56,776 nucleotides of DNA from Candidatus Uhrbacteria bacterium GW2011_GWF2_39_13 (lineage in GTDB: Bacteria > Patescibacteriota > Patescibacteriia > UBA9934 > GWF2-40-263), in NCBI GenBank assembly GCA_000993535.1, contig LBWG01000002.1, positions 1 to 56,776 of the forward strand, read 5' to 3'. Below, piece by piece: positions 23,172-29,129 of this stretch (position 1 is its first letter; every line of letters begins with the position of its first letter). The position numbers and the translations under genes were made by a program. The notes beneath the pieces were generated by a model. That model was not told the origin of the DNA. It saw only the letters and a list, made by a program, of their open reading frames with translations, and did no database searches.

Positions 23172-23819
23172 ATGCCTCTAAAGATTATCACAGCCGTTTT
23201 GTTTTTACTGATCATGGGTTTGCTCTTCACCCAACGTTTTTCTCTTCCTAAAGAACTGTCTGTTCGTATCACTGCTGGAGCTGGTGAAGACGCAGGGTAT
23301 GGATTCGGAGAAAAGCTTCGACGAGGTTCTCTTATTGAAACCCAAAACGGATTTCTCAAAATAACTATTGAAGAGAAATTGCACGATGTAGACCAAGCTC
23401 AAACAAACATTTGGCTCTCAAAAAATACAACGATTGAACTGGAGTGCTTATATCAAAATGAACTCGTGATTCGATTGATAAAAGGACGCATTTTAACCCA
23501 AACTCAAGCAGAAACTCCTTTAGTCATAAAAACTAATCATACTAAACAGTTTTTATATAAAGGAACGGCTTCATTCGTAAACTACGATTTTCTAGAAACG
23601 ATTCATGTCATTCCTTTAAAAGATTCCTCTGTACAAACGAAGATACCCGAAACAAACGAATCTTTTACTGAATCAGTTCCTTATTCTATTCATGAAACAA
23701 TTCCTGTTTCCCATAAATTTCTTGAGATAAATTTACTCGCAGGAGATTCTGCAAATTTTTACCAATGGACGAATACACTACATTTTCTTGACATGAGCCC
23801 TACAATCTTCTATAACTAG
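23172..23819 (+). CDS. membrane-anchored FecR-like protein
   Basis: N-terminal TM; GEKLRRGSLIETQNGFLKITIE… and TTIELECLYQNELVIRLIKGRILTQTQ resemble a FecR fold. Confidence 0.5.
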   Translation: MPLKIITAVLFLLIMGLLFTQRFSLPKELSVRITAGAGEDAGYGFGEKLRRGSLIETQNGFLKITIEEKLHDVDQAQTNIWLSKNTTIELECLYQNELVIRLIKGRILTQTQAETPLVIKTNHTKQFLYKGTASFVNYDFLETIHVIPLKDSSVQTKIPETNESFTESVPYSIHETIPVSHKFLEINLLAGDSANFYQWTNTLHFLDMSPTIFYN

Positions 23820-23855
23820 GGCGCGGGGTAGAGCAGCCAGGCAGCTCGTCGGGCT

Positions 23856-24529
23856 CAATACCGTGAGATCACTAATAAATTGCAATGAGTACAAAACTCA
23901 AAGGCGATATTGCCGAACAAGCAGCGATTCTTCATGCCTTAAAGCAAGGATGGGGATGTTTGCTACCAATTGGCGATCGACTTCCATACGATGTCGCATT
24001 CGATATCAATGGATCTCTGGTGCGTGTCCAAGTCAAAAATGCTTGGATGAAAAAAGATTCTGGAAATTATGTCGTAGATAACCGTCGCACAAAGACGAAT
24101 CGACGAATCATGAAACGAGAATCTTACAAAAAGTCAGATTTCGACTTTGCACTCGTCTACTTGGAAGATAAAGATCTATTCTATATCTTCCCCGTTGAAG
24201 TATTCATCAGTTACGGAAGCGAGATTCATATCGTTGAATCTCAAAAACGTCAACGAAAGCCGCGCTCCTCTGAATTCAGAGAAGCCTGGCATTTTATCTC
24301 ACAATGGGCTGCACAAAAAGAAATTTCTGTGTGAATCCTGTCAAATTCGGGGAAGTCTTTAACATGATAATCCCGAGCCAATCCCTCCTTTGCTAAAGCT
24401 TCGGAAGGAAGGTGTAGAGACTTAATGGCAGGCACCCTCACTATTAGAAATAATAGAAGGGTGAAGAGAAAGTCCAGACCACAAATTCTTTCGTAGATGA
24501 AAGAAGCAGTGAAAACTGTAGTTGGTAAG
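23856..24529 (+). mobile_element. group I (IC3-like) self-splicing intron in tRNA-fMet
   Basis: 5' exon ends in U33, intron ends in G; core-like elements after the ORF: AATCCCGAGCCAATCCC, P6-like TCCTT…AAGGA, P7-like GTGTAGAGACTT…AGAGAAAGTCC, 3' GTGAAAACTGTAGTTGGTAAG. Confidence 0.85.
23885..24334 (+). CDS. intron-encoded PD-(D/E)XK homing endonuclease, I-Ssp6803I-like
   Basis: 149-aa ORF inside the intron: GDIAEQAAIL…LPYDVAFDINGSLVRVQVKNAW active-site pattern; size and host gene match I-Ssp6803I. Confidence 0.85.
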   Translation: MSTKLKGDIAEQAAILHALKQGWGCLLPIGDRLPYDVAFDINGSLVRVQVKNAWMKKDSGNYVVDNRRTKTNRRIMKRESYKKSDFDFALVYLEDKDLFYIFPVEVFISYGSEIHIVESQKRQRKPRSSEFREAWHFISQWAAQKEISV

Positions 24530-24568
24530 CATAACCCGAAGGTCGTCGGTTCAAATCCGACCCCCGCA

Positions 24569-24601
24569 ACACAAAACTCGTGCACTGCACGAGTTTTGTG
24601 T
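24569..24601 (+). terminator. strong hairpin abutting the tRNA-fMet 3' end, probable terminator
   Basis: ACACAAAACTCGTGC-ACT-GCACGAGTTTTGTGT perfect 15-bp stem. Confidence 0.7.
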
Positions 24602-24860
24602 TTGGAAAAAAACAGCGCACCCACGATCAGCGGATATTCACGTGGGTGAACTGTATCTGCGATATGAGTGCGTGCGTCATGGATTTTGTAAAAACCAGAC
24701 CGTCAGAGAGCTTCCGATGGGGAAGTTTCTTGCTGACCAGCGGGGTCAGTCGTTGTCAGGCGACCTTGGTCATACGAGTGGGCAGGTTGTGCCACCAGAC
24801 ACAGCTGGGCTCGAAAACCGAGGTATAACCAAAGAAGGCGTCGTTGAAAACGAGTTGACG

Positions 24861-25202
24861 TCAGTCTTCCTCGTACCCGTCTGGTGCGAACGCCCGAAGA
24901 ATGAGCCCTGAGCACATGGAGGCCACGAACACCATCACCATCGACGTGATAAACCAGTCAATGATGAAGTGAGTCCGCGGAATAATCTCGATCGGGTACC
25001 AAGCGGTAACCGGGAACGAGATCCATACACTCGTACAGAAGGGACACCCCAGCAACTTGCCCAACCACTTGCTCTTGGATTGGGCGAACATACGAAGCGG
25101 CCTGAAAATCCCCGCTTTGGAGATCGTCATGGCCATTACCGAAACAGCAGCTCCAAGGTGAACGAAATACAGAAGCTGGAGACTCATCACCAGCACCCAC
25201 AA
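24861..25202 (-). CDS. small membrane protein, DUF1360-like
   Basis: TISKAGIFRPLRMFAQSKSKWLGKLLGCPFCTSVWISFPVTAWY resembles the CPFCxSxW motif of DUF1360. Confidence 0.55.
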   Translation of the reverse strand: MWVLVMSLQLLYFVHLGAAVSVMAMTISKAGIFRPLRMFAQSKSKWLGKLLGCPFCTSVWISFPVTAWYPIEIIPRTHFIIDWFITSMVMVFVASMCSGLILRAFAPDGYEED

Positions 25203-25411
25203 CGATGCTTGATCACATCGAGCTCACGCTGGCGTTGATCCCGCGTGGTCGGGTCGGTTTCCGCGAGGACAGCGTCGATCGCGGCGATCACCCCATCGAT
25301 GCACGGGTTCTCCATGTCGGCGCCATCGAGACTAGCAGCGTTGTTGTCTCCGCCCTTCCTGTTTATCTTCCTACGCTTCTTTAGGTCGAAATTCATATGA
25401 TCTCCTATCAA
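25187..25411 (-). CDS. hypothetical small protein
   Basis: 74-aa ORF between two same-strand genes in the GC-rich island. Confidence 0.5.
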   Translation of the reverse strand: MIGDHMNFDLKKRRKINRKGGDNNAASLDGADMENPCIDGVIAAIDAVLAETDPTTRDQRQRELDVIKHRCGCW

Positions 25412-26146
25412 TTAATGGAGGGTGCAGAAGGGATGAATGCCGACCACCGCATCCTTCTTGTCCCCGATGAAATCGCTAAGTGCGTCGCTGCAATCGAGAT
25501 CTCGACTCTCGTGGAACACCTGGGTGATCGCCAAATCGATGTCCATCGACGTAATGCCACTTGCCGACCCGGACGCAATGTCGCGGTGCATGGCCAGAGA
25601 CGTAGCACGATCGACGATACCGGCGATCATAGCTCCAGACGACATATGCCCCAAGGTGAAACACTTAACATCGTGGACGATGTCGTTCTCGACACGCATG
25701 TCCACCTTGTAGAGCACGTGCTTCGAGGAGAAGAGGGTATTCGAGGCATAGTCAGCCATGTCATTGATGCCACAGTCCATCTGGATAGGCTTGCTGCCCA
25801 GGTGAAGGCGGAAGATCTCCTCGCTCGCCTTCCGGTGCGGACGTGTGACCTTGATCTTGCGGTCGATACGGCCATCGCGTACTACGGCGGGGTCAAGGAT
25901 GTCGGGACGATTGGTGGCAAGTATCATGAACGAACCCGAGTCATCGAGTCCGTCCATCTCAGCGAGGAACATCGGAACGATGGTGCGTTCCATGTCCGAG
26001 CTGATGCCTGAGCCACGACGTCCGAGGATCGCATCCGCTTCATCGATGAAGATGACAGCGGGGTAGCCGTGTCTTGACTTGTGTTCCCGTGCGCGCACGA
26101 AGAGCGATCGAATAGTGGTCTCAGACGAGCCGACCCAGCGATCCAA
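25412..26146 (-). CDS. ARC/Mpa/PAN-like AAA ATPase, C-terminal fragment (frameshifted)
   Basis: DRWVGSSETTIRSLFVRAREH…PAVIFIDEADAILGRRGSGISSDMERTIVPMFLAEMDGL…NRPDILDPAVVRDGRIDRKIKV. Confidence 0.8.
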   Translation of the reverse strand: MDRWVGSSETTIRSLFVRAREHKSRHGYPAVIFIDEADAILGRRGSGISSDMERTIVPMFLAEMDGLDDSGSFMILATNRPDILDPAVVRDGRIDRKIKVTRPHRKASEEIFRLHLGSKPIQMDCGINDMADYASNTLFSSKHVLYKVDMRVENDIVHDVKCFTLGHMSSGAMIAGIVDRATSLAMHRDIASGSASGITSMDIDLAITQVFHESRDLDCSDALSDFIGDKKDAVVGIHPFCTLH

Positions 26147-27279
26147 AACTCGGGACCTTTGACGTAGATGTAGCCCGTGGTGGGGGCATCGACGTCGTAG
26201 ATCTTTCCGAGCGAGGTAGCGGTGGCCTTCGCGAGCATCGTCTTGCCACAGCCTGGAGGACCATAGAGGAGGATACCCTTGGCAGCCTTCTTGCCGTAAC
26301 GGATGAAGATGTCAGGGTGTAGATGAGGTAGCTCGATCACCTCCCGGATCGCAAGCTTAGCTTCTTCCAGTCCTCCGATGTCGTCCCAACAGACCGAGAT
26401 ACCCGTCGGCACTCTGAAACGGTTGTCCTCCTTGCCAAGGTTGCGCAACACGATGCTTTCTGTGTCATCCAGAACGACCTTGACGCCGACCTCGAGCTGA
26501 CCCTTGAAACGACCCGCGAAGACGATGCGTGGCGTGTCCGTGCCCGACACCTCTATGGTGCTGGAGTCGATCACGCGTTGAACCAGGTAGATGGCTCCCA
26601 TTGAGGCAGCCTCACCGATCACGTCGACGATCTGCATGCTCTCTGCAACGATCCGAACCCAGTCGCCGACGGTCGGTTTCGTATCCTTCGGGATGAAGAC
26701 CTCGACGCGACGTCCTTCATAGAGGACGACCGCACGTGAACGCTTTAAGAAGGCTCGGAAGTCGACGTCTTTGATGGGCTTGATGGGCTTCTTGTGCGGT
26801 TTGTCGATCAGCTCAAAAAAATTGAAGAATCGATCCATATCACAGGTGACGACTCTATCGCCATCATACTGGACGACCGCAATGACTTCGTTTGTGAACC
26901 CCACGACCTGTAACTTCAAGGCTTGAAAGAGCTCTTTACGGAGGTTGGTGTTTCGCCTGGTTCGTAGGAGGTCACCGACCTTGATGATCTTGCCATTGTA
27001 GGTGACCTCAGTATGCTCGGAGGTACTGATCGTCACATCGTTGATCCCAATGAAGTTCTTGCCGAAGTTGAACTTCGGAGCTTCTTTCTCGATCGACTCT
27101 TCCTCTTCCCCTTCTCCAACGTCGATCGACTCGATGAGCTCGATGACGAGCGCCTGGACGAAGGGTGGAGCGGACAGGTCTTCGATGATCTGCCGCTGCT
27201 CCTGCAGCTTGGCGCGAGCCAATTCGAGCGTCGAGCGAAGTTCTTTGTTTTCCTGTTGTAGGACTTGTGCTTCGGACAT
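25924..27279 (-). CDS. ARC/Mpa/PAN-like AAA ATPase, N-terminal part (coiled coil, OB-like region, Walker A); genuine coding ends near 26145
   Basis: N-term coiled coil; DIGGLEEAKLAIREVIELPHLHPDIFIRYGKKAAKGILLYGPPGCGKTMLAKATA; then shifts frame at KGPEF. Confidence 0.8.
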   Translation of the reverse strand: MSEAQVLQQENKELRSTLELARAKLQEQRQIIEDLSAPPFVQALVIELIESIDVGEGEEEESIEKEAPKFNFGKNFIGINDVTISTSEHTEVTYNGKIIKVGDLLRTRRNTNLRKELFQALKLQVVGFTNEVIAVVQYDGDRVVTCDMDRFFNFFELIDKPHKKPIKPIKDVDFRAFLKRSRAVVLYEGRRVEVFIPKDTKPTVGDWVRIVAESMQIVDVIGEAASMGAIYLVQRVIDSSTIEVSGTDTPRIVFAGRFKGQLEVGVKVVLDDTESIVLRNLGKEDNRFRVPTGISVCWDDIGGLEEAKLAIREVIELPHLHPDIFIRYGKKAAKGILLYGPPGCGKTMLAKATATSLGKIYDVDAPTTGYIYVKGPEFWIAGSARLRPLFDRSSCAHGNTSQDTATPLSSSSMKRMRSSDVVAQASARTWNAPSFRCSSLRWTDSMTRVRS

Positions 27280-27355
27280 GGTGTGTCCTTCCTTTTTTGA
27301 GTTTGAAAATTCATGTCAGAAAATCCACATGCAGAATGGATAAGGCTGACAAAAA

Positions 27356-27384
27356 AAAATACAGAAAAAATCGATTTCTGTCAA
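27356..27384 (-). promoter_or_regulatory. sigma70-like promoter for the AAA island operon
   Basis: Minus strand TTGACA-17 nt-TATTTT upstream of the 27279 start. Confidence 0.6.
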
Positions 27385-27450
27385 TCATCATCACATCGTC
27401 TAAACCCACATTTCTCATTTCTTTCAAAAAATGCTAAAATTTCTATACTT

Positions 27451-27915
27451 ATGACGCTTACCACTCATGCGACATTAGGGGCTGTAATTGGACATGCAAC
27501 TGGAAATCCCCTTCTCGCTTTTATTTTCGGATTCATCTCACATTTCTTGATCGACATGATCCCTCATGGGGATACCGGTATTTCTGACAATTTTCGTGTT
27601 CATAAAAAACGTCGCAAACAAGCCGTTGCTTATGTGATGGTCGATGCTGTTTTTGCGATCTTTTTTGTTCTTCTTTTAGCAAACACTCGTGATATCGAAT
27701 CCGTACGAACATTTAGCTGGGGAATCATAGGAGGTGTCTTACCAGATCTTATTGTGGGACTCTACGAAATCACCAAAACCCCATTACTACTTTGGTTCAA
27801 TAAACTTCATTTCTTCTTTCACGATTTCTTCACCAAACGCAAAGGCGACGTCCCTCTCTATTATGCCATCTTGGCTCAGATTGTCTTGATTGCTTATTTA
27901 CAGACGAAATTATAG
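27451..27915 (+). CDS. integral membrane protein, hypothetical (YdjM/metal-dependent-hydrolase-like architecture)
   Basis: MTLTTHATLGAVIGHATGNPLLAFIFGFISHFLIDMIPHGD; ORF track start 27313. Confidence 0.65.
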   Translation: MTLTTHATLGAVIGHATGNPLLAFIFGFISHFLIDMIPHGDTGISDNFRVHKKRRKQAVAYVMVDAVFAIFFVLLLANTRDIESVRTFSWGIIGGVLPDLIVGLYEITKTPLLLWFNKLHFFFHDFFTKRKGDVPLYYAILAQIVLIAYLQTKL

Positions 27916-27924
27916 AAGATAAAT

Positions 27925-27958
27925 AAATAACATCTCTCACGAATGAGAGATGTTATTT
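27925..27958. terminator. bidirectional intrinsic terminator
   Basis: AAATAACATCTCTCA-CGAA-TGAGAGATGTTATTT between convergent genes. Confidence 0.85.
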
Positions 27959-29129
27959 AATAAGGAAAAGCAACTTTTCTCAAGATATCCAACGTTTGTT
28001 CTGCGGCACGTTTCCAACTGAATTCACTTGCTCGTTGAATACCCAGCTCTCGAAGTTCGCGCATCCCTTCTGGAACCAAAAGACATTGTGTTAACGCAAA
28101 AGACATGGCTTCAATATCTTCAGGGTTTACGTATACGACTGCCTCTCCCCCTACTTCTGGCAATGCACCTTGATCAGAAGCAATAACGGGCGTACCGACT
28201 GCCATTGCCTCCAATAACGGAAGACCAAATCCTTCATCAAAAGAAGGATAAAGCAAACAGGCTGCTCGACTTAATAATTGCCACTTCTGTTGCTCTGTCA
28301 CAGACCCCAAAAAAACAATAACTCCCTCAGGTTCGATAGATTTCCATCGTTGATTGATCTGTGTAAGAACTTGCTCAACTTCCTGCGTATGCCATCCCAT
28401 CTTTCCTGCTAACACACAACGTACCTGGGACACTTGTTCTGGATGGCTTTGTAAAAAAAGATCAAACGCCTGCAAGGCATTTACGATATTTTTTCGTGGT
28501 TCAATGGTTCCTAATATCAACACAAAATCTCGATCAAAGGGAAAGTGTTGGCTGATTTGATCTGTCTCTTTTAACGCGTTATACGCCTCTTGTACATTTA
28601 CTCCTTCATAGACAACTCGGACACGGCCCTGCGTTTGCGGAAATAATTCGTGTAATTTATTTTGTGTCGTTTGTGAAACAGCAATAAGAGCACTGGCTCG
28701 TGCGAAACTTCTAGGAACAAGAACGCGGGTAGAAAAATGTTGGTTTGAAGGAAACCATTCTGCATGATCATAAATAGCTAGATCATGAACCGTGATAACC
28801 GTCTTTCCTATCCAAGCAAACGGAATCTGGCCAAAAGGAGAAAAAAAGACATCCGGTCTATGAATCCAAAAACGAAAAGGCAAAAAAAGATGACGTGAAA
28901 CAAAAGAAAATGTTGGACCAAAAGGAGAAAGAATCTTCACATGTGATCCCAGTGATTGAAGTTCTTTTATGGATTGAGCCGATAAACAAGCTGGAGTGTA
29001 AATAAAAAAAAGATCGTTGGGAGCAAGACGAATCATCGAGATCAAAATCGACCACGTATAATGTTCGATTCCTGCACCACGAGAGCCATCTACAGCACAC
29101 AGAGTTGTTCCATCAATGGCAATCCTCAT
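27957..29129 (-). CDS. glycosyltransferase family 4
   Basis: MRIAIDGTTLCAVDGSRGAGIEHYTWSIL…LLYPSFDEGFGLPLLEAMAVGTPVIASDQGALPEVGGEA. Confidence 0.9.
   Translation of the reverse strand: MRIAIDGTTLCAVDGSRGAGIEHYTWSILISMIRLAPNDLFFIYTPACLSAQSIKELQSLGSHVKILSPFGPTFSFVSRHLFLPFRFWIHRPDVFFSPFGQIPFAWIGKTVITVHDLAIYDHAEWFPSNQHFSTRVLVPRSFARASALIAVSQTTQNKLHELFPQTQGRVRVVYEGVNVQEAYNALKETDQISQHFPFDRDFVLILGTIEPRKNIVNALQAFDLFLQSHPEQVSQVRCVLAGKMGWHTQEVEQVLTQINQRWKSIEPEGVIVFLGSVTEQQKWQLLSRAACLLYPSFDEGFGLPLLEAMAVGTPVIASDQGALPEVGGEAVVYVNPEDIEAMSFALTQCLLVPEGMRELRELGIQRASEFSWKRAAEQTLDILRKVAFPY

Follow-up and report, generated by a model that had tools for sequence, protein, structure and literature searches.

Group I introns that interrupt the initiator tRNA gene (tRNA-fMet) and carry an endonuclease of the I-Ssp6803I kind have been known from cyanobacteria since the 1990s. 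The tRNA-fMet intron of Synechocystis sp. PCC 6803 and its endonuclease I-Ssp6803I were reportedly described by Biniszkiewicz in 1994 and by Bonocora and Shub in 2001, and the protein structure is PDB entry 2OST. This intron is 655 nt long with a 150-aa ORF, and in 2007 it was the only case of a PD-(D/E)XK intron endonuclease listed (PMC1995217). The introns of cyanobacterial tRNA-Leu(UAA) and Azoarcus tRNA-Ile are small self-splicing group I introns of the anticodon loop (PMC3984707). They belong to the same small self-splicing class in a bacterial tRNA anticodon loop as the intron reported here, but differ from it in the tRNA and guide sequence and in having no I-Ssp6803I-like ORF. Introns are common in the rRNA of CPR bacteria, and PMC12641178 cites a 2025 preprint (Nakagawa et al. 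2025) whose title concerns group I introns in the tRNA genes of Patescibacteria. By that title, the preprint shares phylum, intron class and tRNA genes with the present case and deals with a novel insertion site.

The DNA analysed here, referred to as the window, is a 56,776-nt stretch of contig LBWG01000002.1 from Candidatus Uhrbacteria bacterium GW2011_GWF2_39_13. A first-pass annotation had described in it an initiator tRNA split by an intron in a Patescibacteria-type genome, and that host assignment was borne out (Uhrbacteria-type). The locus is very probably a group I intron of the mobile tRNA-fMet/I-Ssp6803I type, resident in the native initiator tRNA gene, that splices and homes as set out below. 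It resembles the Synechocystis element in the interrupted tRNA, the ORF family (149 versus 150 aa, 67% identity), the intron length (674 versus 655 nt), the PD-(D/E)XK fold and the putative catalytic residues. It differs in its patescibacterium host and in a protein that has diverged by about one third, and this copy is known from sequence. The element is clearly of a known kind, the host lineage is new for it, and it is more widely distributed than the older literature has it. The features of the locus, with the evidence for each, are as follows; G384 is a congener of the host.

23788-23793 and 23811-23816, plus strand: promoter, TTGACA and TATAAC with a 17-bp spacer (sequence reading; identical hexamers and near-identical context in G384, locus L041)
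23822-23855, plus strand: 5' exon, tRNA-fMet C1 to U33, CGCGGGGTAGAGCAGCCAGGCAGCTCGTCGGGCT (ARAGORN with introns; identical in the intact gene of G384)
23856-24529, plus strand: 674-nt group I intron with CAATACC at its start and G as its last base (ARAGORN; Rfam RF00028; U.G splice-site pair and terminal G)
23885-24334, plus strand: I-Ssp6803I-like homing endonuclease ORF, 149 aa, PD-(D/E)XK fold, PF11645 (PF11645 match; phmmer match to 2OST; identity; structure model)
24290-24496, plus strand: group I catalytic core, Rfam match (RF00028, 90.5 bits; RNAalifold covariation, 30 of 55 pairs changed on both sides)
24304-24310, plus strand: internal guide sequence AUGGGCU (sequence reading; GGGC core shared in position by all 40 related introns with both splice sites located)
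24530-24569, plus strand: 3' exon, tRNA-fMet C34 to discriminator A73, CATAACCCGAAGGTCGTCGGTTCAAATCCGACCCCCGCAA (ARAGORN; comparison with intact relatives)
24569-24603, plus strand: terminator-like perfect inverted repeat followed by a T-run (sequence reading)

With introns allowed, ARAGORN called a tRNA-Met(CAT) gene that spans 23822-24570 and is interrupted at position 34-35, after U33, by a 674-nt intron. When joined, its exons folded into a standard cloverleaf, tRNA-Met(cat). The split-gene call and sequence reading agreed with the earlier description of two exon halves around a 674-nt insert, and the fold of the joined exons upheld the identity of the tRNA. The C1xA72 mismatch, the GGG/CCC anticodon stem, the U33 closing the 5' exon and the G closing the insert were all seen as it had described them; together with the CAU anticodon, the mismatch and stem mark the joined exons as a bacterial initiator tRNA. 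Without introns, ARAGORN found no tRNA in the whole window, indicating that ordinary tRNA finders can miss the initiator tRNA in such genomes. Archaeal and eukaryotic-type tRNA introns, which are spliced by proteins, are short, have a bulge-helix-bulge and usually lie after position 37. An intron of that type was ruled out by the 674-nt size, the 33/34 position and the group I core.

The assignment of the insert to group I, made from sequence in the first-pass annotation, held when checked against Rfam. The Intron_gpI model (RF00028, gathering cut-off 50 bits) matched 24290-24496 over its full length (1-253) with 90.5 bits and an E-value of 6e-23, the sole match in the 1.16-Mb genome. The guide sequence pairs with the 5' splice site (GGCU|CA with UGGGCU) to form P1, with a U.G pair at the splice site (G23853-C24309, C23854-G24308, U23855.G24307, C23856-G24306 and A23857-U24305), and the 3' exon bases C24530, A24531 and U24532 pair with 24306, 24305 and 24304 to form P10. 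The guide GGGC, the CA at the intron start and the terminal G (here G24529) were found in 40 of 40 related introns, the set for which pattern matching placed both splice sites. Covariation was also seen: in an RNAalifold analysis of 20 related introns, aligned from the guide sequence to the 3' splice site, 30 of 55 predicted pairs had two-sided changes, strongest in P2, P6, P8 and P9. Five pairs in this prediction (columns 23-27/202-206) are an artefact of omitting the 5' exon. Both the intron and the 3' exon begin with CA, which in principle leaves the junction free to shift by two bases. Group I splicing requires a terminal intron G and an exon-end U in a U.G pair, and the junction is placed at U33|C34 because only there does the intron end in G and the exon in the U of the U.G pair. 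Guanosine-dependent splicing of the predicted intron in the host cell would follow the usual two steps. The primary transcript would fold into the group I ribozyme, an external guanosine would attack after U33 at the P1 U.G pair, and the freed U33 would attack after the terminal intron G, joining the anticodon loop as CU-CAU-AA and giving the mature initiator tRNA.

The 149-aa ORF reported within the insert was placed at 23885-24334, and its proposed kinship with I-Ssp6803I was well founded. The PF11645 match scored 167.4 bits against a cut-off of 26.1, 2OST was the only PDB entry matched by phmmer (2.3e-64), and 98 of 147 aa (67%) are identical to I-Ssp6803I (2OST). The structure comparison that the first-pass annotation had suggested agreed, the predicted model (mean pLDDT 79.6) aligning to 2OST with a TM-score of 0.82-0.87; no other structure exceeded 0.5 against this model, the next best reaching 0.43. 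E11, D36, Q49 and K51, which we take to be the active site, were invariant in 83 of 83 natural proteins, the Q at position 11 of 2OST presumably being an inactivated crystal mutant. The ORF sits in the P1 loop of the intron. Its last ten or so codons (QWAAQKEISV) also encode the guide sequence, which falls within the W-A codons, and P2, and its 3' end is overlapped by the first 45 or so nt of the Rfam core match. These codons are thus doubly coding, the protein and the ribozyme sharing sequence.

The overlap of ORF codons with P1 and P2 bears on whether the endonuclease is still at work, since the ORF might be kept for the sake of the ribozyme, or for a role in the host, in an intron that splices and no longer homes. 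ORF-less versions of the intron, which survive in G308, G412 and G439, are compatible with such a loss. However, the same relatives show that the ribozyme can do without the ORF, the ORF here is full-length with every invariant residue intact, and empty sites stand uncut in congeners, so that loss of homing appears rather unlikely. Under the preferred reading of an intron that both splices and homes, the P1-loop ORF would give a small PD-(D/E)XK endonuclease that cleaves the anticodon-arm sequence of an uninterrupted tRNA-fMet gene, and repair from the intron-bearing copy would then spread the intron.

An empty site was found in G384, which carries an uninterrupted 75-nt tRNA-fMet gene that is 100% identical to the joined exons and is preceded by the same TTGACA/TATAAC hexamers. 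This indicates that the intron entered a resident gene. Import of the whole tRNA gene was ruled out by the same match of promoter hexamers and exons to the intact gene of G384. The match also weighs against an artefact of assembly or binning, in which the intron of another bacterium had been joined into the contig. The assembly is fragmented and incomplete and the closest protein matches lie in other phyla, as such an artefact would have it, yet the flanking hexamers and both exons equal those of the congener and other, independent Uhrbacteria genomes share this arrangement. We give this explanation almost no credence.

The first-pass annotation had also suggested that the only obvious initiator tRNA would depend on splicing. 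This claim was supported in part: no second complete tRNA-fMet was detected in the host assembly (53 contigs), which is however only 69% complete by the tool's estimate, and none of its 20 other tRNAs has the anticodon CAT. A DNA search of six relatives, all 97-100% complete (G308, G387, G393, G399, G404 and G412), found only a split tRNA-fMet in each. Because no second complete copy was seen and these near-complete relatives have only the split form, it is likely that the cell depends on splicing of this copy.

The alternative is a decayed duplicate, with a working tRNA-fMet in the third of the genome that is missing from the assembly, splicing and homing having both ceased. Incompleteness of the assembly would allow for this, and the encoded CCA is disrupted, A73 being followed by CAC at 24570-24572. 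An orphan 3' half of tRNA-fMet with CCA (L071:1779-1821; contig 44:9778-9820), the only other piece of a tRNA-fMet in the assembly, might be read in the same sense. Decay is nevertheless difficult to reconcile with a promoter, exons (equal to those of the congener), ribozyme core and putative catalytic residues that are all intact, and with six relatives of 97-100% completeness in which only split copies were found; this alternative is very unlikely. The encoded CCA is present in 20 of 20 other tRNAs of the genome and in the intact relatives read, and the CAC is possibly a sequencing error, or else an end that the cell could repair. The 69%-complete assembly yielded no CCA-adding enzyme, which most likely reflects missing contigs, because 28 of 28 relatives have one. 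The contig with the orphan half is 10 kb long and carries an RTX-repeat protein, and the half is either left over from the attachment site of an integrated element or part of a misbinned contig.

Within the order of the host the intron was found in 11 of 73 genomes. An intron core tag was detected in ten of these, the 11th being G308 with a divergent, ORF-less intron that lacks the tag. Genus g337 contains an intron with the ORF (G438), introns without it (G412 and G439) and a genome without the intron (G406), a mix such as gain, loss of the endonuclease and loss of the intron would produce. This patchiness, together with the gene anatomy, the family and structure of the ribozyme, the intact putative catalytic residues and the empty site, argues for the mobile-intron reading.

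A scan of species genomes identified 85 relatives with 16 phylum-level labels, of which 80 were kept. These came from Cyanobacteriota, Bacteroidota, Chloroflexota, Nitrospirota, Planctomycetota, Omnitrophota, several Patescibacteria groups and others, and nearly all were located at tRNA-fMet (the Leu and Ser labels that ARAGORN gave to some have the same exons with a shifted junction). Mapped onto the ORF tree, the 16 phylum labels require 25 changes, against a minimum of 15. Starred branches join, for example, a proteobacterium with a ktedonobacterium, and Patescibacteria with Omnitrophota and Planctomycetota. Single cross-phylum cases are weak, because submitted bins can be contaminated; the number of cases is large. 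Judged from these sequences, spread of the intron/endonuclease family between phyla is well supported.

The horizontal spread put forward in the first-pass annotation therefore stands for the family as a whole (25 versus 15 changes), but for this copy it does not extend to a donor, a direction or a date. The ORF of the window falls in no starred set of the tree, and its highest identity, 73%, is to a Rhodothermales protein; that of G387, from its own family, reaches 70%. A cyanobacterial origin is not supported for this copy, because its best protein matches come from several phyla. AU tests did not reject a single order-level clade of ORFs (P=0.47 and 0.26), so the tree does not call for several entries into the order. 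A search for a viral carrier in the phage and plasmid collections gave no close ORF homologue: no match covered 80% of the ORF, and all were below 60% identity. On the mobile-intron reading, this copy would have been acquired by transfer.

The ORF lies within the intron at 43 of the 80 loci, with introns of 602-702 nt; this number includes L123, where the 5' exon precedes the ORF and the contig stops inside the ribozyme. At 35 loci it lies outside the tRNA, in most cases 46-110 nt downstream of a tRNA split by an ORF-less intron, which is mostly 240-325 nt long (L086-L095, L127-L128, L137-L138, L146-L147 and others; for example L092:2604-3456). At least five switches between the two layouts are needed on the ORF tree. 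The outside layout resembles, in layout only, the collaborative homing of phage introns. The balance of belief is about even on a wider view of these data: that the element is no cyanobacterial speciality but moves from phylum to phylum by way of a single near-universal target; that its hosts include reduced-genome Patescibacteria, whose translation start would then hang on one ribozyme; and that in several lineages the endonuclease gene has moved out of the tRNA to a place beside an ORF-less intron, as in collaborative homing. The loci offer a ready natural series for the study of intron gain, endonuclease loss, intron loss and between-phylum transfer at an indispensable gene.

In Arsenicibacter rosenii (L158:2859-3423) an intact tRNA-fMet is followed by an endonuclease ORF with an in-frame stop, an arrangement suggesting that the intron was lost and the endonuclease is decaying. 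More distant Patescibacteria PF11645 proteins (L023-L031) were found beside unsplit tRNA-Thr, tRNA-Tyr, tRNA-Ser or tRNA-Asp genes and are possibly free-standing relatives aimed at other tRNAs. In the window itself, G+C content is about 0.50 right after the tRNA (24001-28000) and 0.32-0.41 upstream, and this interval contains a DUF1360 protein matching phage family phrog_781; it is possibly an island at the tRNA 3' end. A proteasome-type AAA ATPase (TIGR03689) at 25412-27279 on the minus strand is in two frames, split near 26146, and its parts match the adjoining profile positions 58-262 and 264-487, the split being due to a frameshift mutation, an assembly error or recoding.
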